64,000 bases of DNA from Planctomycetota bacterium (GTDB lineage: Bacteria > Planctomycetota > UBA8742 > UBA2392). Under the pieces are notes generated by a model. That model searched no databases. It was not told the origin of the DNA and was given only the letters and a program-made list of their open reading frames with translations. The stretch is from NCBI GenBank assembly GCA_019912315.1, contig JAIOJA010000040.1, forward strand, positions 90,254 to 154,253. Reading direction: 5' to 3'. Shown in pieces: positions 5,915 to 50,355 of this stretch (position 1 is the first letter of the stretch; each line of letters opens with the position of its first letter). Both the position numbers and the translations under genes were made by a program.

Positions 5915-7615
5915 CTACAGGTCGTCACGGTGGGTAATCGTCAGTACTTCCTCAACCGTACTGGTGCCCAGCAACACCTTGCGTACGCCGTCTTCCTGCA
6001 GCGTGGTCATACCGTTCTGGCGCGCCTCGCCGCGGATCTTCAGCGAGTTCGCCTTCTGGAACGTCAACTCGCGGATGATCGGGTTCATTTCCAGCAGTTC
6101 GTACACACCCATGCGCCCGCGGTAGCCGGCCCCACCGCATTCCTTGCAGCCAACCGGGCGGTAAATCGTGCGCCCGCGAATCGCCTCGGGTTTCAACCCG
6201 ACCGTTTTCAGCTCGGCCGCGTCGGGCACGTAGGGCTGCTTGCAGTGCTTGCAAAGCACGCGCACAAGGCGCTGCGCCAGAATCGCCTGCACGGCACTTG
6301 CCACCAGGAACGGCTTCACACCCATGTCCATCAGGCGGGTCAGCGCGCCCGGCGCGTCGTTGGTGTGCAGGGTGCTGAATACCAGGTGACCCGTGAGTGC
6401 GGCCTGGATGGCAATTTCAGCCGTCTCATGGTCACGAATTTCGCCGACCAGAATGATATTCGGTGCCTGACGCAGCATGGCGCGCAGGATACGGGAGAAC
6501 GTCAACTCGATGCCGTGGTTCACTTGGCTCTGGTTGATGCCGGACAGGTTGTACTCGACTGGATCCTCGGCCGTGATGATCTTGACGTCCGGCGTGTTCA
6601 GCGCCGACAGTGCCGCGTACAGCGTGGTCGTCTTGCCGGAGCCGGTGGGCCCGGTCACCAGGAAGATGCCGTTGGGCTTCTTGAGGATTTTCTGGAAGCG
6701 GTCGAAGTCCGTGGCGTGCATACCCAGCACTTCAAGGCCAACCAGATTCTTCTGTTTGTCGAGAATACGCATGACGACGGACTCGCCCCAGCTGCATGGC
6801 AGGGCGCTGACGCGTAAGTCGATGTCGCGCCCCTCAACGCGGGTTTTGATTCGCCCGTCCTGGGGGATGCGCTTTTCTTCGATCTTCATTTTGCTGAGAA
6901 TCTTGATGCGCTGGATCAGCGGGCCTTGCAGGCGTTTGGGCGGCGCTTCCATTTCCTGACAATCGCCGTCAACGCGGTAGCGAATGCGCAGTTTTTCTTC
7001 CATGGGCTCGACGTGAATGTCGCTCGCGCGCTGTTTGATGGCGTCCGTAATCAGCAGTTGCACCAGTTGCGCGACATAACCTTCTTCGTCGTCGGTGGTG
7101 ACTTCCAGGGCGTCGAAATCCTTGTATTCAACGTCAATGCTTTTGCCTTCGTCGTCCAACATCTCGCCCATACCGCCGATCTGGTAGTACTTCTTCATGG
7201 CGGTCTTGACGTGACTTTCGGGCGCGATGACCCAGTCAACCTCATTGCCAAGAATAAAGCGCAGGTTGTCGAGGGCGTAGAACTCCAGCACGCGGTGGGT
7301 CGCGACGGTGACGTTGCGTCCCTTCTTCATGACGGGGATAATTTCGTGCTCTTCGACCACATCCTTGCTGACCAGTTTCAGCAGGTCCGCCGGAAGATCG
7401 TACTTGTTCAGGCTGACGAATTTCACGCCCTGTTGCTTGGCCAGCGCGCGGGCAAGCTTTTCATCATCGAGATAGCTGAGTTCAATCAACGACTCGCCCA
7501 GCATCATCATGTTGTCTTTGCCGTGCTTGAGCCCTTCCTTGACTTGCTCCACGGAACAGAATTTCAGCCCGACAAGGATCTTGCCCAGGGGCATCTTCTT
7601 GGACTCTGTCAACAT
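5915..7615 (-). CDS. GspE/PilB-type secretion or pilus assembly ATPase
   Basis: 566 aa cytoplasmic hexameric ATPase that powers type II secretion or type IV pilus assembly. An N-terminal MshEN-type domain spans about residues 8-150. The catalytic core has Walker A GPTGSGKTT (322-330), an acidic Asp-box region around 350 (ITAEDPVEYNL), Walker B ILVGEIRD (388-395) and a His box (TGHLVFSTLHTNDA). A zinc-binding tetracysteine is present (Cys455, Cys458, Cys490, Cys493), as in GspE/PilB and unlike the retraction ATPase PilT. No GspF, GspD or prepilin peptidase is in the window, but four pseudopilin genes lie at 22-30.6 kb and may use this motor. It is followed by a clear terminator. Confidence 0.92.
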   Translation of the reverse strand: MLTESKKMPLGKILVGLKFCSVEQVKEGLKHGKDNMMMLGESLIELSYLDDEKLARALAKQQGVKFVSLNKYDLPADLLKLVSKDVVEEHEIIPVMKKGRNVTVATHRVLEFYALDNLRFILGNEVDWVIAPESHVKTAMKKYYQIGGMGEMLDDEGKSIDVEYKDFDALEVTTDDEEGYVAQLVQLLITDAIKQRASDIHVEPMEEKLRIRYRVDGDCQEMEAPPKRLQGPLIQRIKILSKMKIEEKRIPQDGRIKTRVEGRDIDLRVSALPCSWGESVVMRILDKQKNLVGLEVLGMHATDFDRFQKILKKPNGIFLVTGPTGSGKTTTLYAALSALNTPDVKIITAEDPVEYNLSGINQSQVNHGIELTFSRILRAMLRQAPNIILVGEIRDHETAEIAIQAALTGHLVFSTLHTNDAPGALTRLMDMGVKPFLVASAVQAILAQRLVRVLCKHCKQPYVPDAAELKTVGLKPEAIRGRTIYRPVGCKECGGAGYRGRMGVYELLEMNPIIRELTFQKANSLKIRGEARQNGMTTLQEDGVRKVLLGTSTVEEVLTITHRDDL

Positions 7616-22207: not shown

Positions 22208-23494
22208 ATGTCGTCATCAAGTGATACCTGCTATTCCCGCCCGCGAGGCGATCGCGATGCGGGCTGCGTCCGAGGCAACGCCACTGGCACCCCAGGCAGG
22301 CGGAACCGGCGTGGCTTTACCATGCTGGAGTTGCTGGTGGTGATCTGCATCCTCGTGGTTGCTGTGCTGGTGTTCGCCACGTTCCTTGGGCCCAGTTCGA
22401 TCGGACCGGCCCTTGAGCGCAACGCCCGCGGCATTCGGACCATGGTCGCAAACGTGCGCCAGAACAGCAGCACCCGCAAAGTCCACAGCGAGCTGGTGGT
22501 CGATTACAAGCACGATCAGGTGATTGCCCTTGCACGCCGCCGTCTCGTGACGTTCGCGTTTGACGGGCAGTCGCCAACTCTTGGCAGCGGCAACCTGATC
22601 GGTGACCTGCGCGGCGACGCTACCACAACGACCGATCGCCGCCTGCAACTGGTAGACGGCGGCGCGCTTGAACTTCCCGACGCGCAATCGTCATTCGCCA
22701 TACCGTGGTCCGAGACTTTCAACGTGACCGGCGACTACGAGGGCATGGCGGTTTCGTTCGACTACTTCCCGACGCCCGGCGGCGGCTCCACGCTGGTCAG
22801 CATGGGCGGCGTGTACACCATTCAGGTTTCGCAGGGCGCCCGTGATTCGGTGCGCTTGACCCTGGCAAGTGGCGGCGTAAGCGTCACCGCACGCAGCTAT
22901 CTGGCGCCGTACCGCTGGGTCAGCGTCGAGATTGCCGTCAGCCGCTACGGCGTCAGCCTGTACGTGGACGGACGCGTTAACGAGGGCGTGCTGCCGCCGG
23001 ACGGCTTTGCTGTGCCGAGCGCCCTTGGTAATGAAACCCGCATCGGCGGCGTGCCCTGCCGCATCGACAATTTCGAGATGTTCAGCCTGGTCAGCAGCCA
23101 GGTGTTGCAGCTTAACGACGTGCAGTTGGTGCCCGATGGCGTAAACCCGCAACTTGAGGTTGAGGGCGGCGCAGAAGACATCTATCGCTGGGAAGCCGAG
23201 CCCCCGAAATCCAACGGCCCGATCACCCAAGGCAACGCACCAAGCGAAACGCCCCCCGATCCGAGTCTGCCGCAAAACGTGCCGGCCATCATGCACGTGT
23301 ACTTTGATACGTCCGGCAAGCTTGACCCGGTGCGCCATAGCGGCGCCGTGTACGTGAACATGGTGGCCGTGGTCGACGGCGCGCTCACGCGCATGGTGGT
23401 CACCATTCATCCGCTGGGCACCGTGACCTGGGACTACACGGACAGGTTCTGGTGGGAGCCGCCACCGGCGCCTCCCGGAGGGGACTCTCCATGA
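22208..23494 (+). CDS. pseudopilin, GspH-like, with LamG-like domain
   Basis: About 428 aa from the ATG at 22208 (an ATG at 22202 is equally possible; neither has a strong ribosome site). A long leader ends in RRNRRG, followed by the class III prepilin helix FTMLELLVVICILVVAVLVF with Glu at +5, so prepilin peptidase should cut after Gly. After the helix comes a GspH-type region (VANVRQNSSTRKVHSEL). Residues about 165-295 look like a LamG/concanavalin-like sandwich (AVSFDYFPTPGGGSTLVSMG, YGVSLYVDGRVNEG, RIDNFEMFSL). GspH is normally about 170 aa, so this is an enlarged form. First gene of a four-gene pseudopilin operon; its TGA overlaps the next ATG. Confidence 0.85.
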   Translation: MSSSSDTCYSRPRGDRDAGCVRGNATGTPGRRNRRGFTMLELLVVICILVVAVLVFATFLGPSSIGPALERNARGIRTMVANVRQNSSTRKVHSELVVDYKHDQVIALARRRLVTFAFDGQSPTLGSGNLIGDLRGDATTTTDRRLQLVDGGALELPDAQSSFAIPWSETFNVTGDYEGMAVSFDYFPTPGGGSTLVSMGGVYTIQVSQGARDSVRLTLASGGVSVTARSYLAPYRWVSVEIAVSRYGVSLYVDGRVNEGVLPPDGFAVPSALGNETRIGGVPCRIDNFEMFSLVSSQVLQLNDVQLVPDGVNPQLEVEGGAEDIYRWEAEPPKSNGPITQGNAPSETPPDPSLPQNVPAIMHVYFDTSGKLDPVRHSGAVYVNMVAVVDGALTRMVVTIHPLGTVTWDYTDRFWWEPPPAPPGGDSP

Positions 23495-26400
23495 ACGCGA
23501 AACGCAAAGGTGCGGCCCTGATGATGGTGATGGTCATACTGGCCCTGTTGCTGGTGCTGGCCGTCAGCTTCACGTTCCTGATGTCGCAGCAGCAGGGGAC
23601 CAGCGTCGCGAGCCTCGGCGGCGAACAGACGCGCATCATGACCCGTACGGGCGCGGATCACGCCTACGCCCGCCTGAACCCGCGCAACCGCCTGAATGAA
23701 TTTGATCGCTGGTACAACACGCCGCCCGCGGACGTGACGCTCGAAGACGACCCGTTTATTGACTGGTACAACGAAAGCTATATCGATCTGCTGGCCGACT
23801 TCGAGGGCTGGGGCGACCAAGCCCCGCTGTTCGCGGGGCTGGTTGATGAAGACGGCAACCCGCTGTTTCGCATTGAGGACCCGCGCCGCCGTGTGCTCGG
23901 TATGAACGTGCAGGATGAGTCCGGCAAGATCAACCTGAACTTCTCAACGCCGGGCATGATCGGCAACCTGATCGGCAGCGCGACCGTGGCAGCCAATGCG
24001 CCCGCCGTGGGCGGAATGTACGAAGCCATTGACCTGACGGACGCGAGCTTCCTTGATCCCTTCGACGGGAATGCCGGCGGCTACGTCGTGATTGACGACC
24101 AGCTTTTCAGCTACGCCTGGCGCAAGGGCAATCGTCTGTTCCTGTGTACGCCCAACGCCAACTACATTGGCCCACCACCCGGCAATGCCATGTTCGTGGT
24201 CCGCAGTGCGGGGCGCGAAATTCAGACTGGCGAGTTCGTGACAGTGCCCCTGGCATACAAGCTGGCGCACTACCGCTGGCTGATGGCCCGCAACGGACGT
24301 CCCGCCCTGTACAACAGCATTGGCGACACCCGGCGCGTGGCGGACATGCCGCGCTGGTTCACGCCTGATCCCGCCAAGGGCCCCGACGATCTCGACGGTG
24401 TACTTGAGGGCATGGACCCCGTCACCTACCAGTGGCTGCAGGAGAACGCCACGGTAGTTGCCCCGACCGAATACTTCGACGGCGGCTGGAGCTATCCGCA
24501 CGTCGTCACATGGGGCGACATGGTCCCCTGGGGCGAAAGCGGACATCAGATTTTCCAGATCCGCTACGACGATCAACTTGGCGTGCAACAGGACTACTAT
24601 GTCCCCCTCGACCCCCGTCGCCCGAACCCGCAGAACAACATCGCCCAATGGGCCGGGCTGGACGCCGGCAACCTGATACGCCTGCGCCGCACGGACACCG
24701 GGCGCATCATCTTTGGAAGCGTCGTCGCGTCGATTCGCGGCAACCAGCAGGGCAACCTTGGCACGCTGTATCTGGCCGTTGAGGGTGAGCACGAGATCAA
24801 CCCCGGCGAGCCATGGATCATCGAAGTGGCCGAGCGCGCAAGCATCAACATCAACACCGCGAACGGGGATACACTGGCGGCTGTCTTCCACGGCATCGGC
24901 CCGCGCAGCCAGAGCAGCCCGCCCATTGACTGGATCAGCGCAAGGGCCATCGCGTCGCGCATTCTTTCGCGCACGCAGAGTGGCGTCGCGGATGACGCGT
25001 TCACGGACCTGGATGACGTGCTGAACTTTCTGCGCGACCTGGTGCAGGAGCAGCCGCCGGTACTGACTGCCGAGCAACTGAACGCATTCGCGACGCAGCA
25101 GCGTTACCCGTACGCGCGGCGAAACCAGGGGTTGATTACGGCGCAATTCCGCTACGACACGCTGGACACCTACATGGTGGACGCCTACGCCACGCGCTAC
25201 CTGCCCAGTGGCGGCACCATGGCGCGCGACGCCTTCCGCGAATGGGTGCAGATCGGCAGCGACCGCGAACAAACCTACCGCTGGTTCAGTTACCCGCAGT
25301 TTCAGCAAGCGATGGCCGTGCCGCAGGGCAACATCATGCAGCTTCACGCCTCCGGCACCGAGAACGACCGCCTGCTCGGCATGGTTGAACTGCCGTATCT
25401 GCACTACCTGGCCGATGAGCGCTATGTCCGCACCTGGCGCCAGGCGCCGTGGACGACACCACAACCCCGCGACGTCTATGCCATGGGCGTGGACTCCCAG
25501 CGACCCGAGAAGTTCTACCGCAACATTGTGATGGCCCAGCCCACACCCACCAGCAGCTACCAGGCCGGCGACCTCGAGGCCGGCATGTTCAGCTTCTGGT
25601 ATCGCCCGCAATGGCAGGACCACGCGGCCAACCACTACCTGTTCGACGTAGCCGAGCAGGAGTACAGCAACCGCATGAGCATGTTGTGGTGGGGTGACAG
25701 GCGCACAGCTTATCGCATGGCCGGGAAGAATAGCGGGCTGGTGATGCGGGTGAAGGACCGCACGTTGCAGGAGGCGTATACGGAGTTGCGCTTTGAGCTT
25801 GACCCGGCACACTTCCGGCAGAACGACTGGTACCACATGAGCCTGAACTGGAAGGGCACGGAGTTAAGCCACGTCAATCTGCTGCTCGATGGCGACCAGT
25901 CCAGCACGTCCGGCGGGCAGGCCATTCAGCCCGTCGTGAATCACACGTTCCGCGACACCAACGGCGCCTGGTTTACGCTCACGACGAACCTGCAGGACGA
26001 CCTGGAAGACCCGCGCTTCACGCCGATGACGCAGTTCGACATACGCATCGACGCGCAGGATATTGATGGCTTTCCCGACCGGGGCGTGATCGTCATCGGC
26101 GACGAGGCCATCGAATACAGCGGCAACAACGGCTTCGCCCTGACGGGTATTTATCGCGGCCCGCCCATGTGGGACACCTCCGTCAACCCGGCGGTCCCGA
26201 TTCCCGGTACAGCCAGCGGCGCCCGGGGCACGACGGCGGGTTTCCATCCGGCAGGCAGCAAGATCACCGTGTTCGGCTACACGGCGCCGGTCGTTCGCTA
26301 CCAGCAGCAGAACAACCCCAACCAGGTGTGGCGCCCGCGTTTCCCGCACCTGCCCGGCACGCAGGGGCTGCTGACGAGCCCCTTGGGTAGCAAGGGCGCG

Positions 26401-28878
26401 TACCGCATCAGCCGTGTGGGCAGCGCCAACAGCAATTACTACCGTCCCGAGGAGCTCGGCCCCGACGCCGGCTTTCCGGGCAGCGGGTCGGGGGGCAACG
26501 CCAACCTGCTGCCTCTGGATGACTATTCCGGGTTGCCTCAGCGCGGCTTGGTAATGGTTGTGGGCTACGCCTGGATCGGCTATTTCCCGCCGGGGACCCA
26601 GGGCATACCGACGGGGGGCGTGAGCTATCCGCGCTTTGAGGGCGGTCGGGTCGGCGACGACGATGACGCTGCAACGCCGCCCGCGCCACCTGCACGATTC
26701 CCCATGCCCCACTTCGGCGGCGCGCTGCAATGCGAGTATGTCTACTATGACGGCATTACCACCGGCGGGCTGAATGTCGTCGCGCGCTATGACGGCGACT
26801 TCAACTACAAGGACCCGGCCAACTGGTGGCATTTCCTCGGCACATATCCGCAGGTTGGTTCAGGTAACGAGCTGATTCTGCCGCAGCAGCCGACGACATC
26901 CCCCAATTACCAGACCGAAGTAAACTGGATCAATTTCTTTTCGCGTGGCAGCTTGGTCATGCCCGTCAGCATAGGCGTCGATGATGTCAGTGGGTATCAC
27001 AACCGCAGCATCGCGCAGATTGACACCGAGTGGCTGTACTACAACAAGGTGTGGGACAGCACCCAGACAATCGACGCGTCGGGCGGCACGCTGACCGGCG
27101 ACGACGACAACTATTTCCCTGGGCTGCTGTTCATCGCGCCCTGGAGCAAAGCCATCAACGCGGGCTGGTATGGCTGGATCAACAACCTGGCCGCCAATGA
27201 CACCCAGGCAATCGTACCGCGAGCGCCATGGCGAGGCGCCTGTGGAACCGGTATTCGCACACACCAAGCCGCGGCGCCGGTGGTGCCGACTTTTGGAACG
27301 ACGGTCACGACCGGCGAGCACGACATCATCACGCTGGTAGCGGGCAAGAACCAGTCGAAAGAACAGCGCCAGATTCGCGTGCACCGCCAGCTTGGGCTGT
27401 ACACCGGCGATTTCTTTTACATGTTCCCCGGCATGATCAACAACTGGAACGTCACCTCCAACGAGTACATCTGCGGGCTGTCGGACCACGTTCCGATTGA
27501 CTACCAGCCCAACACGGGCAATCCCAACAACGCGAACTATCCCTACACCGGCAGCAACCTGTGCAAGTTCCCGACCGGCGAGTTGCCCGTCGAGTTGCCG
27601 ATCACCTGGACGTTCGCCGGGGCTGACTCGCGCACACTGGATGCCGGTACCCAGGGGCAGGGGCTTGTGCATACGGGCGACTTCGATTCGTTCGAGTTCC
27701 GCATGTACAACAAGGGAGACTTCCGTCTAGTTAGTGACATGACCGACACGATCCCCGCCAACGCAGGCGAGATTCAGGTGAACACCCAGTTGCCCCCGAA
27801 TCTGGGGGTCGTTCGTATTGACAACGAACTCGTCGCCTACCGCGCCACGGACGTGCGCCAGAGCACCGTCACGCTGCCGAACGGCACGACGACGACCATC
27901 ACTACCTACCACCTGACCGACATTACCCGCGGGATTCTGGGCTCGCGCGTTGAGGCCCACGCGGGCGGCACGCCCATCATGAACATGGCCAGTATGCGCG
28001 TAGGGCGACCGGACAGTGCGGGCTCACCGAACACCAACTACATTGTCACGACCCTTGGCGAAGAAACCTTCAAGCCCTACGGCTTCATCCGCGTCGAGGA
28101 TGAGCAGGGCAACATCGAGATTATGGGCTACCAGCGCTACAACGAAAGCCAGGTGGCGGGCCCGAACGGCGGCACGATCCGCAAGGGCAACATCACCAGC
28201 GGGCTGTATCACGATCAGAACGCGACCCAGGCGTTGTTTCGCGGCGCCTACGGCACCCGGGCACGATCCTACGACCAGCGGGCGCTGTTCTTCGACCAGC
28301 CGGTGCGCTTCCCGGACTGGTTCCCCGGCTATCACAGTGAACTCGACCGAAACAGCACGACCGACTATGCGCCTTTCCATGACAACGAGCTGCAAGGCGT
28401 GCCTGGCGCGGCCAGCCCGGAGATCAGCTATTTCCAGGGCGCGGCCACGTTCCGGAACTCTGAGTTCCGCCGCTTCCGCTGGCGCATTCAGTATTCGCCG
28501 CTGGCGGACATGTCGCGCCACAGCAACGCCATCGGCGCGCGTCTGGTAATGCGTTTCAAGCAGCCGGGACAAACGATGCCGGAGTGGGACTCCGTGCCGA
28601 CCAACCTGCCGGGCGGGTTGTATTCATTCGATTTCGATCCGGGGCTTACCAACTGTGAGGACCTGGGCATGACCCTGTGGGAGCAGACTCAGGATTTCAC
28701 GCAGATGCGAGGCACACCCAACGGCATTCGCGCCGACCGCGTGGAATGGCGCGTGTATTTCTACTTCAAGCGCGACGCCTTCGTGAACGAGGACTACAAG
28801 ACCACCTTGCAGTTTCACGGAGCAAGCATGGATGTCCACCAGTTCACGCGCGTATTGCGACACGAGGAGAAGCGCTAG
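23491..28878 (+). CDS. giant GspK-like minor pseudopilin with LamG-like and repeated RGxxGT modules
   Basis: 1,795 aa from the ATG at 23491 (good AGGGGA site; ATGA overlap with the previous gene). The leader KRKGAALMMVMVILALLLVL lacks Glu at +5, as in GspK. GspK-like blocks follow: DESGKINLNF (about residue 145) and SININTANGDTLAAVFHGIG (about 448-470), then a helix-hairpin region with ARAIASRIL and a DLDDVLNFL element. A LamG-like sandwich lies at about 695-805. The rest holds several copies of a 60-90-residue module with G-x-V-x-I-x-x-E-x-x-x-Y, then RG-x-x-GT-x-x-x-x-H (for example SGARGTTAGFH, WRGACGTGIRTH, TRGILGSRVEAH, FRGAYGTRARSY). Usual GspK is about 320 aa. Probably a pseudopilus tip protein; no ligand can be named. 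Confidence 0.8.
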   Translation: MNAKRKGAALMMVMVILALLLVLAVSFTFLMSQQQGTSVASLGGEQTRIMTRTGADHAYARLNPRNRLNEFDRWYNTPPADVTLEDDPFIDWYNESYIDLLADFEGWGDQAPLFAGLVDEDGNPLFRIEDPRRRVLGMNVQDESGKINLNFSTPGMIGNLIGSATVAANAPAVGGMYEAIDLTDASFLDPFDGNAGGYVVIDDQLFSYAWRKGNRLFLCTPNANYIGPPPGNAMFVVRSAGREIQTGEFVTVPLAYKLAHYRWLMARNGRPALYNSIGDTRRVADMPRWFTPDPAKGPDDLDGVLEGMDPVTYQWLQENATVVAPTEYFDGGWSYPHVVTWGDMVPWGESGHQIFQIRYDDQLGVQQDYYVPLDPRRPNPQNNIAQWAGLDAGNLIRLRRTDTGRIIFGSVVASIRGNQQGNLGTLYLAVEGEHEINPGEPWIIEVAERASININTANGDTLAAVFHGIGPRSQSSPPIDWISARAIASRILSRTQSGVADDAFTDLDDVLNFLRDLVQEQPPVLTAEQLNAFATQQRYPYARRNQGLITAQFRYDTLDTYMVDAYATRYLPSGGTMARDAFREWVQIGSDREQTYRWFSYPQFQQAMAVPQGNIMQLHASGTENDRLLGMVELPYLHYLADERYVRTWRQAPWTTPQPRDVYAMGVDSQRPEKFYRNIVMAQPTPTSSYQAGDLEAGMFSFWYRPQWQDHAANHYLFDVAEQEYSNRMSMLWWGDRRTAYRMAGKNSGLVMRVKDRTLQEAYTELRFELDPAHFRQNDWYHMSLNWKGTELSHVNLLLDGDQSSTSGGQAIQPVVNHTFRDTNGAWFTLTTNLQDDLEDPRFTPMTQFDIRIDAQDIDGFPDRGVIVIGDEAIEYSGNNGFALTGIYRGPPMWDTSVNPAVPIPGTASGARGTTAGFHPAGSKITVFGYTAPVVRYQQQNNPNQVWRPRFPHLPGTQGLLTSPLGSKGAYRISRVGSANSNYYRPEELGPDAGFPGSGSGGNANLLPLDDYSGLPQRGLVMVVGYAWIGYFPPGTQGIPTGGVSYPRFEGGRVGDDDDAATPPAPPARFPMPHFGGALQCEYVYYDGITTGGLNVVARYDGDFNYKDPANWWHFLGTYPQVGSGNELILPQQPTTSPNYQTEVNWINFFSRGSLVMPVSIGVDDVSGYHNRSIAQIDTEWLYYNKVWDSTQTIDASGGTLTGDDDNYFPGLLFIAPWSKAINAGWYGWINNLAANDTQAIVPRAPWRGACGTGIRTHQAAAPVVPTFGTTVTTGEHDIITLVAGKNQSKEQRQIRVHRQLGLYTGDFFYMFPGMINNWNVTSNEYICGLSDHVPIDYQPNTGNPNNANYPYTGSNLCKFPTGELPVELPITWTFAGADSRTLDAGTQGQGLVHTGDFDSFEFRMYNKGDFRLVSDMTDTIPANAGEIQVNTQLPPNLGVVRIDNELVAYRATDVRQSTVTLPNGTTTTITTYHLTDITRGILGSRVEAHAGGTPIMNMASMRVGRPDSAGSPNTNYIVTTLGEETFKPYGFIRVEDEQGNIEIMGYQRYNESQVAGPNGGTIRKGNITSGLYHDQNATQALFRGAYGTRARSYDQRALFFDQPVRFPDWFPGYHSELDRNSTTDYAPFHDNELQGVPGAASPEISYFQGAATFRNSEFRRFRWRIQYSPLADMSRHSNAIGARLVMRFKQPGQTMPEWDSVPTNLPGGLYSFDFDPGLTNCEDLGMTLWEQTQDFTQMRGTPNGIRADRVEWRVYFYFKRDAFVNEDYKTTLQFHGASMDVHQFTRVLRHEEKR

Positions 28879-28977
28879 GTGAATCGTGGACCGTGGATCG
28901 TGAGTCGTGAATCGAACTTCGCCTTCGGCGAAGCACCGGCGTTTCGGGCCACGATTCACGAACCACGATCCACGAAG
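28879..28977. repeat. heptamer-repeat element C (inverted arms inside the 5' end of a gene)
   Basis: Left arm 28879-28913: GTGAATC/GTGGACC/GTGGATC/GTGAGTC/GTGAATC. Right arm 28950-28977: CACGATT/CACGAAC/CACGATC/CACGAAG, the reverse complement. In the centre CTTCGCC-TTC-GGCGAAG (28917-28933) is a perfect short hairpin. The first GTG is the start codon of the GspJ-like gene. Confidence 0.85.
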
Positions 28978-30072
28978 AGAGGCTTCACCCTCATCGAGTT
29001 GATGGTCGCCATCGGCATTCTGCTGGTTCTGGGCGTGATGCTGATCGGCTTTCTGCGCGGCGCGCTGTCCATGACGCGCACCGGCACCGCACGCGGCGCA
29101 CAGTTCGAGACCGCGCAGACCACCCTGCGCATGATTGAGGAAGACCTCAGCCAGGTGGTGGCACTGCCCGCACACCCGGACGGGCCTGCCGACGACCCCG
29201 CCTTCATTGTCGGTGAGGATCCATTCGGTCGCCAGTTTCTGGCGTTTACTCGCGCCTGGGGTGAGGAACAATCGACCTTGGCCGGCTACGACTCCGGGCG
29301 CGGTGCGACCAGTCAGGGCTACAGCGACGACTTCACCGGCAGCAACCCGCGCGCCGCCATGCGCGCGAGCACGGGCAACATCGAGGTCGTTTACCTGTTC
29401 GAGCCGCTGCTTCACAGCACGCGCCTTTACCGGGCCGTGCGGTCGCCACCGGATGTGGCAAACGGATTGATCACCAAGGTCGGCATGTGGGCCGGCGATC
29501 ACGCGGGCGCGACGGGCGACGACCCGGGCCCGATGTTCAGCGCGGTCAGTACGGGCGGTGCCTACGACCTGACCGGGGCGAGCGGCGCGCCGGTTTCTCT
29601 GTGGTCTCAGTTTGAGCTGGTGGCTGACGACGTGGTCGCCTTCGGCGTTGAGTGCTGGGATGACGAACTGACCTCGACCTGGCATGGGCGTGCGGGCGGG
29701 CCGGCTACGCGCTGGTCCATTGGCGACCAGGTTGCGGCCGGGCGTTTGCCGCTGCCGCGGGCGGTGCGCGTAACGTTGATCGTCGCGGCGAGCGAGCCCC
29801 TGCGTGCGGAAACAATTGTAACCGGTGCCATCGGCGCCAACGACACGTCGATTTACGTAGATGAGTCGGACGGTTTTCCCGACGTAGGCTCGCCCAGCGC
29901 GTACCTGCGCGTGGGGGCGGAGCTTGTGGCCTACGGCGCGCGCTCCGGGCGCACGTTCGGGTCGGGTATCCGGGGCGCGCTGGGCACACGTGCGCAGGCG
30001 CATACGAACGGCGAGCTTGTGCTCGCGGGTGAGGCGTTTCAGAAAGTGGTTCAGTTACCGGTGACGAGATGA
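28879..30072 (+). CDS. pseudopilin, GspJ-like, starting in a heptamer repeat and ending in an RGxxGT module
   Basis: 397 aa. The start is a GTG directly after the previous stop, with GAGGAGA eight bases upstream. The first 33 codons run through heptamer element C, so the leader ends RSTKRG before FTLIELMVAIGILLVL (Glu at +5). A GspJ-type helix region follows (QTTLRMIEEDLSQVVALP). Residues about 314-389 are the same module as in the giant neighbour: SIYVDESDGFPDVGSP, then LRVGAELVAYGARSGRTF and IRGALGTRAQAHTNG. GspJ is usually about 200 aa. ATGA overlap with the next gene. No start codon lies nearer the cleavage site in frame, except a second GTG at 28900. Confidence 0.85.
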   Translation: MNRGPWIVSRESNFAFGEAPAFRATIHEPRSTKRGFTLIELMVAIGILLVLGVMLIGFLRGALSMTRTGTARGAQFETAQTTLRMIEEDLSQVVALPAHPDGPADDPAFIVGEDPFGRQFLAFTRAWGEEQSTLAGYDSGRGATSQGYSDDFTGSNPRAAMRASTGNIEVVYLFEPLLHSTRLYRAVRSPPDVANGLITKVGMWAGDHAGATGDDPGPMFSAVSTGGAYDLTGASGAPVSLWSQFELVADDVVAFGVECWDDELTSTWHGRAGGPATRWSIGDQVAAGRLPLPRAVRVTLIVAASEPLRAETIVTGAIGANDTSIYVDESDGFPDVGSPSAYLRVGAELVAYGARSGRTFGSGIRGALGTRAQAHTNGELVLAGEAFQKVVQLPVTR

Positions 30073-30563
30073 TCCACGATCTACGATCCACGAAACACGG
30101 CTTCACGTTGATCGAAATCCTGATGGCCATGTCCATCCTGCTGCTCGGCATCGTGGGCGTGTACGCGATCTTTGCGGTGGGGCTGGTGAACCACAAACGG
30201 GCGGTGGACAACACGACGGCGAGTGTGCTGGCGGGCAGCGTTTTTGACGACATCGCGGCGAACTACAGCATGTACTACTACGACCGCAACTTTAATGGCC
30301 GCCCGGACCTGTCCGAAGACGGCAACAGCAACGGCGTGCCGGACTGGTTCGAGCCCACCCAGAGCGGGCAACTGCGCTATCCCATTCCGTTCCGGCGCGG
30401 CTACCGGTACGACATTCGGTATGAGCGCAGCCATGAGGTCCCGCAGGAACTATTCGTCAGCATCAGTATCTACTGGCGTGCCGAAGACAGCGAACGGGTG
30501 GAGACGTTCCAGCGCAGCATCTTCATCAAGCACCTGCCCCTGGATGACGATCAGAGCGGGTAG
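30069..30563 (+). CDS. pseudopilin, GspI-like, with two calcium-loop-like motifs
   Basis: 164 aa. A short leader MIHDLRSTKHG precedes the prepilin helix FTLIEILMAMSILLLGIVGV (Glu at +5). The leader is nearly the same as the end of the GspJ-like leader (RSTKRG) and comes from heptamer element D. Residues about 72-94 read DRNFNGRPDLSEDGNSNGVPD, two D-x-N-x-N-G-x-x-D loops of the kind that bind calcium; this is where calcium binds in some pseudopilins and in dockerin/TSP3-like repeats. The C-terminal part resembles GspI (ELFVSISIYWRAEDSERVETF). Last pseudopilin of the operon; start overlaps the previous stop (ATGA). Confidence 0.83.
   Translation: MIHDLRSTKHGFTLIEILMAMSILLLGIVGVYAIFAVGLVNHKRAVDNTTASVLAGSVFDDIAANYSMYYYDRNFNGRPDLSEDGNSNGVPDWFEPTQSGQLRYPIPFRRGYRYDIRYERSHEVPQELFVSISIYWRAEDSERVETFQRSIFIKHLPLDDDQSG
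30071..30098 (+). repeat. heptamer-repeat element D (single arm, coding for a pseudopilin leader)
   Basis: Four 7-base units, GATCCAC/GATCTAC/GATCCAC/GAAACAC, directly after the ATG at 30069. The unit is the same word family as the right arm of element C, which encodes the leader of the preceding pseudopilin. Confidence 0.75.
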
Positions 30564-30631
30564 ACACCATCTCACGACGGGATGTTCACGAGACTCAGCG
30601 CCACAATGATCCATTTCCTGCCGGCACTGCC

Positions 30632-30666
30632 CATTGATCATTGCCCGATCAACGTTAATCATCGGG
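30632..30666 (+). repeat. heptamer-repeat element E (single arm)
   Basis: CATTGAT/CATTGCC/CGATCAA/CGTTAAT/CATCGGG, five degenerate units ending six bases before the ATG at 30672. CCCGAT and ATCGGG inside it can pair. Confidence 0.5.
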
Positions 30667-30671
30667 CTATT

Positions 30672-31391
30672 ATGCGGATACTGCCCTTCATCCTTCTGGC
30701 TCTGCTGTTTACCGCGTGCATGAATGCACCGGAAATCGAGCGCGACAACCTGCGCCGGGGCGCCAGAGACGCCGAGCCCGAACAGCACGAAGCGAAGCGC
30801 GCCGAGTTGCGCACCGTGCTGGGCGGCGGTGCGGACTCCCCGCGCGACGCCGACCCGCACCTGCGCGCAACGGCGGCGCAGGGGCTGGGAATGCTGGGCT
30901 ATGCCGACGACTACGAAGCCCTGCTGGATGCCCTGCTTGGACCACTTGCGGACGAGAACATGCTGGTGCGCATGGAGTGCGCGATCGCGCTGGGCAAGCT
31001 CGCCTACAGCGGACGCACCGACGAGCGCCGCCTGGAAGTCATACTGCAACTGCGCCGCCGCGTCGCATTTGAACGCGATGACAACGGGCGCCTGTTTGAG
31101 ACCGAGTTCCTGGTTCGCTCCGCCATGCTCAACAGCCTGATTGCCATCGGTGGGCGGGATTCCGCGGCCGCTATCCATGACATCGCGTCGCGAATACACA
31201 GTGACCTCGAAAGCACGGAGGCCGTGTTCACCAGCGCAAGTGACCGCGGGCTGCTGGACCGCTGTTTCCAAGGGCTCGCCGCACTGACCGGCGTGCCCCT
31301 GCGCGAGGCGGCGGACAACCGCTTCGCAAGCGACGACCTGACCGATCACATCGACTGGTGGGCAAGCCGGATTTCCGAAATGCCGGAGTAG
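30672..31391 (+). CDS. lipoprotein with HEAT-like repeats
   Basis: 239 aa from the ATG at 30672, which gives a clean lipoprotein signal (MRILPFILLALLFTAC); the frame is open further upstream but that part is repeat sequence. The mature protein contains helical repeats typical of HEAT/PBS-lyase proteins: LRATAAQGLGMLGYADDYEALLDALL, VRMECAIALGKLAYSGR and FLVRSAMLNSLIAIGGRDSA. These act as protein-protein scaffolds. It follows the pseudopilin operon by about 110 bases, so could belong to the same unit, but no direct link can be shown. Confidence 0.78.
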   Translation: MRILPFILLALLFTACMNAPEIERDNLRRGARDAEPEQHEAKRAELRTVLGGGADSPRDADPHLRATAAQGLGMLGYADDYEALLDALLGPLADENMLVRMECAIALGKLAYSGRTDERRLEVILQLRRRVAFERDDNGRLFETEFLVRSAMLNSLIAIGGRDSAAAIHDIASRIHSDLESTEAVFTSASDRGLLDRCFQGLAALTGVPLREAADNRFASDDLTDHIDWWASRISEMPE

Positions 31392-45615: not shown

Positions 45616-48600
45616 CTATCGCGAGTAGCGGGGCGGCGCCATGCCCTGGCCTATGCTGACTCCAAGGAAGCCGCGTTTGACCGTGATTTCAGAATCCTCA
45701 AACTGCCACGCAACGAACCCGTCCTCGTCAGCGATCGTCTTGCCCCTGGCGTCGCGCGCCGGTACAAGGGCGCCATCCTTGATCGCGTAGCGCCGCACCG
45801 ACACCTTCACTTCCGTGCCCGGCGGAATCGGTCCCCAGAACGCGATGAAATCATCGAAGCTCCGGAGCCTGTTTCCGTTCATGCTCCGGATTTCATCGAA
45901 CCTGCGCAGCCCATACTGCCAGGCGGGCGCGCCCTCCGTGACATCAACCAGCAGCACGATTTCATCGTACAGCGACTCCGACCGTGTCCCCGCCGGCGCT
46001 CGCAACGCCTCCAGTGCAAGCGCCCAACCCTCCGTGTCGGTTACGAATTCGAAGCTGCCGCCCTCCCATCCGGACGGAAGGTCTGACACCCTCAGCCCGG
46101 CATTGGCACCGTCCAGAATGGCCTTCACAGCCGCCGCCAGCGCCGCTTGTTCAGCCTCGTAGCGGTCGATTGCGTCCAGTGCCCGCAGCTTCGGCAGCTT
46201 TTCATGCAACGGATCCACGCTTGTGAACTTGCCGGCGCGGTGCATCTCCGCAAGCCCGGCCAGGGCGTTGGCCTTGTTCAGGTAAAAAGCCCCGTCCAGA
46301 AAGCGCCCAAGCCTTTCGCGATCGGCGCACAGGTCCAGCACGTCCAGGTTATAAGCTCGCCCGCCGCCGCTCATCAGGGCTTCGATCATGCGGTCCTGTG
46401 CGTGGCACAGCAGCACCAGGTCCGCGGAGGCGAGGTTCGCGCGGGACTGTTCGCGCAACAGTCGCAAGCCTTCAAGCATCGCGCCTGCCTGGGCTTCCTC
46501 GCGCACCATGTACACGGACGCCCCGCCGCGCACAGCCAGCATCATCGCCTTTCCGATGGCCTCGCGGGCGTTGGAGGGCTGCGCATCCAGCAGATGCCGA
46601 TAGCTTAGCGCGTCCAGCCACCAGCGCATGATCGGGATGGTGCCGCCGCCCCAGCGCATATGGCAGAACGGGTTGCGCGCCAAGGCTTCCTCAATCACGA
46701 CCTGGGCGTCGTCGTAGCGCTCGAGCTGAATCAGCGAATCGGCCAGCAGATAGCTTGTGCGGAAATCCGTAGGCTCAATGCGGCTGGCCGCGGCGAAGTC
46801 GCTGGCGGCGTTGGTCAGCTTTTCGCGGCGCTGGTTCAGGAACTCCGCTCCCGCGTCGACGACCGGGTCTTCGCCCCCAATGTTGCGCGAGGTTGCGGTG
46901 GCTTCGCTGAAGCGCGTCCGGTCTTCTTTCTGGGCCATCATGTGCCAGTGCAGCCCGCGGTAGTACCAGGACAGCCATTGTTGCGGATCCGATTCGACGC
47001 TTCGGGTGGCCGTGTCCAGTCCATCAATGTGGCGCCCGTGTGCGAAATGCAATTGCGTAAGCACGCACAACGCCACCGAATCCTCAGGGTTCAGAGCAAC
47101 CGCCTGCGTCGCGTCCTCCATGGCGCCGCCGCCAAGGCTGTAATGCCGCCGCAGCCAGGAGCGCTTCGACCAGGTGCGCCAGTCGCCGGGCCATTTCTCG
47201 ATGGCGCGGGTCATGATGGTTTCGCCTGCGCGCGGGTCGCCCCGGTCGGCCATCAGGTCCGCGTACTCAAGGTAGGTGTCCAAGCGCCAGGGTTGCAGGT
47301 CAAGCGCCTTGTCGAAATCCGCGCGGGCCTCGGGCAGGCTGTAACGCGAGCCGTACACGCGCCCGCGCGCGAGGTAGCCGCGATAATCCTTGGGGCGTTG
47401 TTTGATCGCCAGACTGAAATCCGCAACTCTGGGCTCCCAGGCGCCCGCCGCGTTCCGCACGTGCCCGCGCTCCAGCAGTGCCTCGAAGTTGTCCGGGTCG
47501 ATGGCCAGCGCCTCGTTCAGGTCGGCCTCGGCGTCGCCGGGGCGCCCCAGCGCGAAGTATGCCAGCGCGCGGAGTATCAGCGCGGCGACAGACTTTTCAT
47601 CAAGGTTCAGGGCGCGGCCTGCCGCGAGCTCGGCCGTGGGGAAGTCGCCGCGCGCGATCAGGACGGCGGCGCGGTCGGTCCAGTCCGCGGCGCCGACGGG
47701 GTTGCGCAAACGCGCGGGCAGCGGCAGGTTCGCCACGCCGGCGGAGACCTCGCGCCAGAAATCCAGCCCCAGGCGGTCACGGGCTTCAAACAGCGGCGTC
47801 AGGGCGTCCGCACTGCCGGTAGCGCACAGGGCCATGGCGGCTTCATGCACGAGTTCCGGGCGTTCGGTCTGGGACAGCAGCCCGGACAGCACCACGATCG
47901 CTTCGGCGGGCTGGTTCACGTTGCCCAGCACCCGGCAGATCAGCTTTGCCAGGTCAAATTCACTGCGCGACCACACGGCCGTGTTGCGCGACAGCAGGCT
48001 GTCGAGTTCGGTGCTAAGCAGCCCAATGGTCTGGCGCTCGCGGTAGGTGCTGAGACGACGGATGTACTCGTCCATGTCCGGGGCGTCGGGGTCGCGCCAT
48101 TCGCGATACAGCCCTTCGCGAACGTCAGCTAGTGCCTGGCTGATGCGGGTGCCGTGTAGCTTCAGCAGCTCATTCCTTGACGCCTGCACTTCCGCGCGGG
48201 CGGCGGCCAGGCGCTCCGCGGGCATGCCCGTCGCGCCCAGCAGCAGGATTGCCAACTGGAAGTCGCCGTTGAAACTGGCGAGCCTCGCCGTGTCGAACCG
48301 GATTTCGATCAGCTCCTTGCGTTCAGCTTCCAGATCAATCTGGGCGACTTCACCGGGTAGTTCGGTGCCGGCCGGGCCGGTCAACAGGTCAATCAGCGTC
48401 TGTTTGCTGCTGATATAGCCAAGCATACTCGATAGCAGCACGTCGTTGCCCGTCTGCTCATCGACCGGCAATTCAAGCAGCGCGAGTGCGGGCGGGCCGG
48501 CCAGGCGGGCTTCGTATTCCGCGACGCGGTTGCGGAGGTCGTGTAATGCCGGCTCAATGCGCATTCCGTCGATGGTCTCGATCAGGCGACGGGCTTCGTC

Positions 48601-50355
48601 AACGCGGGAGTTCAACTCCTCCTGTGCGGTCACACGGGCCTCTTCCTCAACCCGTTCTCGTTCGCTACGCTCGAAGTTCGCCAGCGCCAGTGATTCGTCG
48701 GCTTTGCCGCGCGCTTCTTCGGCTTGGCGCTGCGCCGTCTGGGCCTCGTCGCGCTCTTCGGTCAGGCGCTGCATGAAGAAGATCGTGCCCGCCACCAGCA
48801 GCAGGAAGCCCAGCACGCCGACACCGACCGTGGTTCGATGCTGCGCAATGTAGCGCTTGAACATTTCCGTGGCGCTGTACTGGTAGCTGCCGAGTGTGCG
48901 CCCGTCCCGGAAGGCCTTGACTTCGCCGGCCAGTTCCAGCGCGCTACCGATGCGGTCCTTTTTTTCGCGCGCCATGGCCTTTTCGACCAGGGCCTGCAAC
49001 TCCGGCGGCACGTCGCGCTCGCGTACACCGACCCGCAGCGGCGGCCCGCCAAGAACCTGCTGTACGATGAGTGCCGCCATGGGGCCCTCATAGGGCGGAC
49101 TGCCCGTGAGAATCTGGTACAGCACGGCGCCAAGCGCGTAGACGTCGGACTGCTCATCCACGTTTTCGAGTTCGCCGCGGGCCTGCTCCGGCGGCATGTA
49201 GGCCGGTGTCCCGACGATACTGCCATCGAGCGTCAGGGCTTGGCTGTCCGATTCGATCAGGGACTTCGACAGCGCGAGCGTGCCTTTTTGCAGGTCGCGC
49301 ATTGCCTTATCTTCCTGGCCTTTCACCCGTGCCAGCCCCCAGTCCAGCACCTGGGTTTCACCGAAGTCGCCAAGCATGATGTTCTCAGGCTTGAGGTCGC
49401 GGTGGATGACGCCCTTGGAGTGGGCGTAGGCGATGGCCTGGCAGACGTCGATGAAACTGTCCAGCAGGCGAATACGCGCCGCCAGTCGCTGCTGTTTGTT
49501 GAGGGTTTCGTCCTTGCGGATCTCGCGCAGTCGGTCGGCCAGGGTTTTGCCGCGGACGAAGCGCATGGTGTAGTAGATGCTGCCGTCTTCGTGTTTTCCG
49601 ATCTCATAGACCGGCACGATATTCGGGTGCTCCAGCTGGCCCGTGATTTTGGCTTCGCGCAGGAAACGCTCAACGACGCCTCCGCTGTCGTTTGTGTACT
49701 GCTGCGGCACACTGCCGGGAATGCTGCTGTTGCCGGTCATGCCGGGCAGCAGCTCCTTGAGTGCGATGTCGCGCCCGATGGCCTGATCACGCGCCAGCAT
49801 GATACGCCCCATGCCGCCTCGGGCGTGCTCACGGCGGACGTGATAGCGTTCGTTGTTGACGCCGAAGTTCGGAAAGAACTTGCCGGTTGTCAGGCGCAGG
49901 ACGCCCGTGTTGTCTCTGGGGGCATGGGTGGGGCTTTCCGAGTCCGCGGGTTGTTCCGCCCCCGGCCTGATCTCGGTGTCCGCGAGTCTGCGCCCGGAGC
50001 CGGCGATCTGCTTGAACGTGTCGTGCAGTACTCTGTAGCGGGTTTCGTCGCCATTGCCGGTGACGTCGCCAGCGCCGAAATTGAACAGGGTCTGCTGGAT
50101 GTTGTCGGAAATGCCAATGTCTTCGAGGGCGCGGCGCTGCTTGCCCGGGTCATTCAAAACTTCGATGATCGGCAGCTCAAGGGACTCGCCGTTCTCCCCG
50201 GACACGCTGACGATTAGCGCGTTGCCGTCGAAATCCACTAGGGTTGAGGCCTTGCCGGGCTCCTTTAACGCGGCAACGGCCTCATCGGCACCGATGATGC
50301 CGCTGTGCACCGCAAGCAGCGCGGCGACGATGGATTTTCTGCGTTCTTCAGACAT
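45616..50355 (-). CDS. transmembrane Ser/Thr protein kinase with TPR repeats and C-terminal PDZ-like domain
   Basis: 1,579 aa. An N-terminal 160-residue region of unknown type is followed by a PknB-like kinase (about 170-490): glycine loop ARGGMGRIML (178-187), Lys200 in IALKELL, HRD at 318-320 (VIHRDLKPENIML), DWG in place of DFG at 338-340, and GTPAYMPPEQ. A membrane segment (508-528) separates it from a coiled coil (530-590) and a long extracytoplasmic part with TPR-like repeats (about 880-1120, for example AALILRALAYFALGRPGDAEADL). The last 120 residues (APAWQYGLRRFDEIRSMNG) look like PDZ. It is the standard layout of planctomycete sensory kinases. Convergent with the HerA-like gene, 3 bases apart. 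Confidence 0.9.
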   Translation of the reverse strand: MSEERRKSIVAALLAVHSGIIGADEAVAALKEPGKASTLVDFDGNALIVSVSGENGESLELPIIEVLNDPGKQRRALEDIGISDNIQQTLFNFGAGDVTGNGDETRYRVLHDTFKQIAGSGRRLADTEIRPGAEQPADSESPTHAPRDNTGVLRLTTGKFFPNFGVNNERYHVRREHARGGMGRIMLARDQAIGRDIALKELLPGMTGNSSIPGSVPQQYTNDSGGVVERFLREAKITGQLEHPNIVPVYEIGKHEDGSIYYTMRFVRGKTLADRLREIRKDETLNKQQRLAARIRLLDSFIDVCQAIAYAHSKGVIHRDLKPENIMLGDFGETQVLDWGLARVKGQEDKAMRDLQKGTLALSKSLIESDSQALTLDGSIVGTPAYMPPEQARGELENVDEQSDVYALGAVLYQILTGSPPYEGPMAALIVQQVLGGPPLRVGVRERDVPPELQALVEKAMAREKKDRIGSALELAGEVKAFRDGRTLGSYQYSATEMFKRYIAQHRTTVGVGVLGFLLLVAGTIFFMQRLTEERDEAQTAQRQAEEARGKADESLALANFERSERERVEEEARVTAQEELNSRVDEARRLIETIDGMRIEPALHDLRNRVAEYEARLAGPPALALLELPVDEQTGNDVLLSSMLGYISSKQTLIDLLTGPAGTELPGEVAQIDLEAERKELIEIRFDTARLASFNGDFQLAILLLGATGMPAERLAAARAEVQASRNELLKLHGTRISQALADVREGLYREWRDPDAPDMDEYIRRLSTYRERQTIGLLSTELDSLLSRNTAVWSRSEFDLAKLICRVLGNVNQPAEAIVVLSGLLSQTERPELVHEAAMALCATGSADALTPLFEARDRLGLDFWREVSAGVANLPLPARLRNPVGAADWTDRAAVLIARGDFPTAELAAGRALNLDEKSVAALILRALAYFALGRPGDAEADLNEALAIDPDNFEALLERGHVRNAAGAWEPRVADFSLAIKQRPKDYRGYLARGRVYGSRYSLPEARADFDKALDLQPWRLDTYLEYADLMADRGDPRAGETIMTRAIEKWPGDWRTWSKRSWLRRHYSLGGGAMEDATQAVALNPEDSVALCVLTQLHFAHGRHIDGLDTATRSVESDPQQWLSWYYRGLHWHMMAQKEDRTRFSEATATSRNIGGEDPVVDAGAEFLNQRREKLTNAASDFAAASRIEPTDFRTSYLLADSLIQLERYDDAQVVIEEALARNPFCHMRWGGGTIPIMRWWLDALSYRHLLDAQPSNAREAIGKAMMLAVRGGASVYMVREEAQAGAMLEGLRLLREQSRANLASADLVLLCHAQDRMIEALMSGGGRAYNLDVLDLCADRERLGRFLDGAFYLNKANALAGLAEMHRAGKFTSVDPLHEKLPKLRALDAIDRYEAEQAALAAAVKAILDGANAGLRVSDLPSGWEGGSFEFVTDTEGWALALEALRAPAGTRSESLYDEIVLLVDVTEGAPAWQYGLRRFDEIRSMNGNRLRSFDDFIAFWGPIPPGTEVKVSVRRYAIKDGALVPARDARGKTIADEDGFVAWQFEDSEITVKRGFLGVSIGQGMAPPRYSR

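Follow-up and report, generated by a model that had tools for sequence, protein, structure and literature searches.

In a stretch of 64,000 nucleotides from a Planctomycetota bacterium (assembly GCA_019912315.1, contig JAIOJA010000040.1; hereafter the window), positions 22208-30563 of the forward strand carry four adjoining pilin-like genes in the order H-like, K-like, J-like and I-like. A sequence-only reading of this DNA had described four consecutive prepilin-type genes with three ATGA or adjacent junctions, and this observation is confirmed. The H/K junction is an ATGA overlap, the J and I genes overlap as well, and the K and J genes abut. The Pfam N_methyl model (PF07963) recognised the proposed leaders above its cut-off in H (E 2.9e-5), J (3.2e-7) and I (3.7e-7); K has a leader and a hydrophobic helix without Glu5. 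The search proposed for GspJ did return T2SSJ (PF11612, E 0.0017) and gspJ (E 1.5e-5) for the J protein, but both scores lie under the cut-offs. For the I protein, the matches to a PilV-type model (E 7.6e-8) and to gspI (E 0.0011) likewise fell short of the cut-offs.

Table 1. Genes and protein regions of the four-gene locus (window coordinates; aa, amino acids)
Feature	Position	Strand	Details
H-like pilin	22208..23494	+	428 aa; prepilin leader, predicted cleavage after G36; putative LamG/concanavalin-like sandwich
LamG-type sandwich of H, approximate	22547..23110	+	residues about 114-301, placed via profile positions 78-265
K-like giant minor pilin	23491..28878	+	1,795 aa, 200.6 kDa
GspK-type core of K	23500..25263	+	residues 4-591; interrupted by additional inserts, among them a beta barrel at 334-450
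Probable concanavalin/LamG-like region of K	25516..26025	+	residues about 676-845; PF13385 in relatives, modelled strands
Phage-tail-type module, strong copy	26029..26292	+	K residues 847-934
Phage-tail-type module	26965..27288	+	K 1159-1266; 13.5 bits, best of 400 shuffles 5.8
Phage-tail-type module	27772..27978	+	K 1428-1496; 14.3 bits, best of 400 shuffles 5.8
Probable further module copy	27994..28317	+	K residues 1502-1609
C-terminal beta sandwich of K	28315..28857	+	residues about 1609-1789
J-like pilin	28879..30072	+	397 aa, GTG start
Phage-tail-type module, J C-terminus	29836..30021	+	J 320-381; 26.7 bits with the K-built model
I-like pilin	30069..30563	+	164 aa

The GspK core and the size of K

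K is a real and stable giant, almost six times the usual size, with 1,795 aa against 307 positions in the GspK family model; the sequence-only reading had put it at over five times the usual length. A structure search of the predicted model returned the GspK fold on which that reading depended, over residues 4-591, and the solved chain matched is named 'Type II secretion system protein K'. The GspK-like blocks expected at about 145 and 448-470 were located at residues 142-150 (DESGKINLN) and 452-457 (ININTA). The NCBIfam GspK model gave E 8.9e-7 and 28.7 bits, which does not reach the curated cut-off of 130. The suggested T2SSK model of Pfam matched 4 of 18 K members, but not the K protein of the window.

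A protein search that scored about 8,000 candidates placed K in a family of 35 rows including the window protein. Thirty-two of these have 1,736-1,797 aa and three are shorter (1,282-1,503). The other 34 are 23-82% identical to the window K, and the named ones are 'Planctomycetes bacterium' or Planctomycetota records. More distant relatives within the phylum span 1,376-2,205 aa in a 33-row alignment; since this alignment is occupied to the last residues, the length of K does not stem from a recent fusion. Residue 5 of the family is M, L, I, S, A or T, with Glu5 in none of the 33 sequences, and the residue before the cleavage site is G in 32 and A in one. The locus shows the arrangement of an HIJK set, with four pilins in one operon and a K that lacks Glu5. 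For H and J of the relatives, Glu5 was present in 24/24 and 25/25, a circular count because these proteins were found by a motif containing Glu5. In a genome of the same genus (L117), the K gene is broken into three match pieces with one in-frame TGA and longest open frames of 1,429 and 606 aa, through either decay or an assembly error.

Domains added to the pilin modules

By profile comparison, the H family carries a LamG-type sandwich. Its profile matched the solved LamG domains of an arabinanase (5hon, E 1.5e-6), neurexin and laminin, and its start also matched pilins. PF13385 was found in 9 of 24 family members at E 0.01 (best 4.4e-18). The sandwich proposed for H thus stands at the level of the family, but the window H itself matched PF13385 only under the cut-off (E 0.043, residues 193-261). 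For K, a LamG-type sandwich is probable. The domain had been placed near residues 700-800, and PF13385 occurs in 9 of 18 members of an alignment that includes the window K; the window protein itself gave no Pfam match. Together with a tail-type module in K and J, PF13385 in H and K members gives these proteins the build of modular pilins, a pilin module joined to an unrelated domain.

The module common to K and J resembles parts of phage tails, with similarity to baseplate or hub proteins in both sequence and fold. The window J matched phrog_4406 (E 1.4e-4), and the J-family profile matched 8rk3_o (E 8.3e-4), among the best 60 inspected of 186 rows up to E 1. PF23666 (Rcc01698-like, C-terminal) was found in 3 of 18 K members, not including the window K, which also gave no match in PHROG; Rcc01698 is a tail protein of a gene transfer agent. 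The evidence for the phage link comes from the K relatives, the window J and structure. For the phage JBD30 baseplate chain (8rk3) and the phage GP4 portal-tail protein (8jov), sharing is known for this module only. Thermonuclease matches of the J-family profile (E 0.05-0.16, also among the best 60 of 186) were taken as chance, as were PDZ domains and the abrin B chain, which the repeat profile alone matched in the PDB at E 0.18 or worse. The module, the spread through the phylum and the second half-operon described below all go beyond the sequence-only reading.

Gene neighbourhood in the phylum and in the window's genome

An initial K search of genome contigs gave no match. A profile of K residues 440-935 (threshold E 1e-5) was then run over 294 genomes of the phylum, each at least 90% complete, with the window's own included. 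It matched 144 of them, mostly in open frames of 1,360-2,400 aa, and 117 of the 144 matches reached 1e-40 or better. The operon is also carried by the complete chromosome of Planctomycetes bacterium Pla86 (CP036296.1), which we take to be a cultured isolate. In loci with sufficient flank, a leader rule found H in 23/28, J in 28/30, I in 27/30 and all three in 22/28; two more H genes (L101, L103) were spotted by eye and are not part of this count.

In distant families, genes for a GspG-like pilin, a TPR protein, a small protein and a PilM-type protein lie upstream of H. An FHA protein precedes PilM in all five genomes scanned there, and it resembles the cytoplasmic domain of YscD in each. Ahead of the FHA gene lies an FHA-sigma-54 activator (G030, G034, G045, G039) or a protein kinase (G024). 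Double-FHA proteins upstream of PilM at L136:12670-15030 and L147:11057-13666 showed a weak CBM_4_9 match under cut-off. Models of PilM, TPR, G, H, K and J were run over 57 loci from 55 genomes, many of them cut by contig ends or short-flanked and some used in model building. They recognised PilM in 28, TPR in 29, G in 31, H in 46 and J in 46; I was not among the modelled genes. In 20 loci outside model building, picked from the 144 and mostly one per family, PilM, TPR, G, H and J were each recognised in 17. The misses were all genes in G064 and G133, the upstream genes in G078 and J in G115 (contig end). The gene order, which the sequence-only reading had proposed to survey, is conserved across the phylum.

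For the window's family and its sister family (13 genomes), the fetched flanks of a few kb contained no PilM, TPR or G gene. The genome of the window has FHA, PilM, two small proteins, TPR and a GspG-like pilin at C52:220296-230148. This G shares 35% identity with the G protein of G030 (E 5e-32), the PilM matched that of G024 (E 2e-26), and the FHA protein scored 128.4 bits with the FhaB model (cut-off 125). Because the missing half sits there and resembles the G and PilM of relatives, one system appears to be split into two loci in this genome.

The ATPase gene noticed earlier at 5915-7615 (minus strand) was confirmed by PilB (616.2 bits, cut-off 675.65) as the best NCBIfam match, followed by GspE (598.4, cut-off 630.25). 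It lies 14.6 kb from the operon on the opposite strand, and is one of ten PF00437 matches of the genome, nine of them over the cut-off; the remaining matches lie outside the window. The genome also has five secretin matches (four over cut-off) and six GspF domain matches; all lie on other contigs, in agreement with the earlier remark that the 64-kb window holds neither. A GspD-type secretin (L087) just passes its curated cut-off (352.3 versus 351.35 bits), and its gene is on contig C55, which has no N_methyl match. A GspF-type protein stays below (391.7 versus 424). The scanned operon genes, which cover only some of the neighbours, included no recognised GspC, D, E or F. A second four-gene prepilin-type cluster of ordinary sizes, including a GspG-type pilin, lies at L073:6565-9178 (G000:C2, near 11.5-14.2 kb), adjoined on the same contig by a DNA polymerase III alpha gene. 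Another cluster, at L074:5346-9091 (G000:C35), has five prepilin-motif matches.

A proposed filament tip and its alternatives

We favour the reading that the H-I-J-K-type minor pilins make up the outward end of a planctomycetal type IV filament as a tip complex, in which the giant K is a cap with ligand-binding and phage-tail-like domains (probability roughly 60%). The earlier idea of a pseudopilus tip with unusually large, putatively ligand-binding minor subunits is supported by the GspK fold, the absence of Glu5 in 33/33 K sequences, the LamG-type sandwich predicted in the H family and the probable one in K. The interpretation of the sequence-only reading as a whole is partly supported. Its other suggestion, that the machine secretes very large substrates, finds no support: the recognised conserved partners are PilM, TPR, a GspG-like pilin and FHA proteins, no GspC, D, E or F was recognised in the operon genes scanned, and the ATPase is distant on the other strand.

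In the proposed mechanism, prepilin peptidase would cut the leaders. Judging by the GspK fold and by knowledge of HIJK sets, I and J would pair, K would cap them through its core, and H would join the complex to the GspG-like main pilin. PilM with its small partners, TPR and FHA, whose genes are linked, may organise the assembly, perhaps under the control of phosphorylation. An ATPase, a GspF-type platform and a secretin, encoded elsewhere, would be borrowed from another system of the same genome, and the filament would push a head of roughly 200 kDa through the secretin. The LamG-type domains of H, and probably of K, would bind a ligand outside the cell, most likely a polysaccharide. The tail-type modules may provide a rigid, extended scaffold common to K and J. 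With such a filament head, the cell could probably hold on to sugars or surfaces.

Several points weigh against the filament-tip reading. No Pfam domain was found in the window K at E 0.01, and a concanavalin fold is absent from the 50 listed structure-search matches of its model, which are taken up by region 334-450 and the GspK core. LamG folds may also bind proteins or be purely structural. In the phylum sample, 150 of the 294 genomes had no K-profile match, and 27 of the 144 matches were weaker than 1e-40, some of them partial. K stood without a recognised neighbour in 8 of the 57 loci (G025, G044, G064, G133 and two of three G055 loci, with G017 and G019 cut by contig ends). Export of the head across the outer membrane is assumed, since the operon itself contains no recognised secretin, ATPase or GspF.

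A periplasmic pseudopilus of the type II secretion system (T2SS) kind, in which the giant K and the sandwiches would recruit very large secreted enzymes or push them, is an unlikely alternative. K has the GspK fold, J and I weakly resemble GspJ and GspI, and the genome encodes the GspD-type secretin and the GspF-type protein described above. Among the operon genes scanned, however, the GspC-GspM machine set was not recognised; the recognised partners are PilM, TPR, the G-like pilin and FHA, and the GspD gene sits apart on C55. We consider it improbable that the locus encodes an envelope-spanning or signalling structure, with FHA, PilM and TPR as an inner-membrane platform that H-I-J-K would connect to the outer membrane as a short tether or sensor. 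The YscD-like FHA proteins beside PilM, the FhaB score in the window's own genome, the kinase gene adjoining FHA in G024 and the lack of a recognised motor or secretin in cis would suit such a structure, but the GspG-like pilin conserved in the operon (31/57 loci; 17/20 independent) indicates a polymer.

The Verru_Chthon cassette, a giant protein A with pilin-like proteins, raises the question of a planctomycetal counterpart, whatever its function. TIGR02600 (protein A) matched over about its first 50-74 positions only, in K-like and other giants, in 20 of 60 genomes, J matched protein C (5.8e-6; 7e-9 in L106), and the H of L106 matched protein D (1.2e-7). The J and H matches all fall within the leader-helix part, no genome of the 60 exceeded the cut-off of 332.3 bits, the listed matches are confined to positions 1-74 of 1,296, and the window's own genome had no TIGR02600 match. 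We rejected this identity on the cut-off and regard a counterpart as very improbable. Further giants, mostly of 1,000-2,100 aa and sharing only a GspK/Verru_Chthon-like start, occur in G044 (C25) and on several G055 contigs. Some genomes carry several, which hints at a broader class of giant N-terminal pilins. The probability that the open frames line up by chance or result from an assembly error is negligible, because gene order and K size are conserved across the phylum.

Relative to GspK/XcpX (6utu, 9a1f), K shares the prepilin helix, the fold over residues 4-591, the lack of Glu5 and the I- and J-like neighbours, but differs by about 1,200 further residues, a sub-cut-off score and no recognised gsp operon. 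Verru_Chthon proteins A, C and D are alike in combining giant and pilin-like proteins with similar leader-helix segments, whereas the scores of the window's family are far under cut-off and the protein bodies gave no match. The own-genome PilM matched Akkermansia Amuc_1101 (E 1.5e-17) and pilM (E 9.5e-20), although at 63.7 bits against 650 and 70.9 against 133; the planctomycete operon differs in that no secretin was recognised in it.

The closest functional precedent is the lectin-bearing minor pilin PilC of Streptococcus sanguinis (PMC9934059). Passages on PilB and PilC with PilA describe ligand-binding-type domains added to minor pilins, with a concanavalin-type lectin on PilC proposed at the filament tip; they report modular pilins as widespread, with PF13385 among the added domains and an extreme case of 860 residues (PMC8179133, PMC9934059). 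The same passages mention no tail-type modules, GspK-based giant or PilM-TPR-G-H-K-J-I operon. A description of the operon was not found in titles or abstracts among the matches listed from open-licence PubMed Central. What is new is a variant of modular pilin tips that is widespread in Planctomycetota.

A study of planctomycetes reports pili-like fibres 12 nm wide at the large crateriform structures of Planctopirus; in both Planctopirus and Gemmata, gold-labelled dextran was located mainly at fibres of this kind, and the uptake system was described as 'still to be characterized' (PMC5394234). We link the operon to these fibres as a proposal only. An improbable extension would make the filament head a hybrid of pilus tip and phage-tail tip, whose GspK cap bears a lectin-like domain and tail modules in series, works through its own FHA-PilM-TPR platform and accounts for the dextran-binding crateriform fibres. 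The operon with its putative lectin-like tip subunits, detected by the K profile in 144 of the 294 sampled genomes, would supply named candidate genes for the dextran-fibre question. That a predicted pilus tip has a module in common with phage tails is relevant to the way in which thin filaments acquire their heads.

Outside the four genes, a HEAT-repeat protein (PF13646, E 4.1e-8) is encoded directly after the I gene at 30582-31391. Another very long open frame, of 1,579 aa, lies at 45616-50355 on the minus strand of the window.

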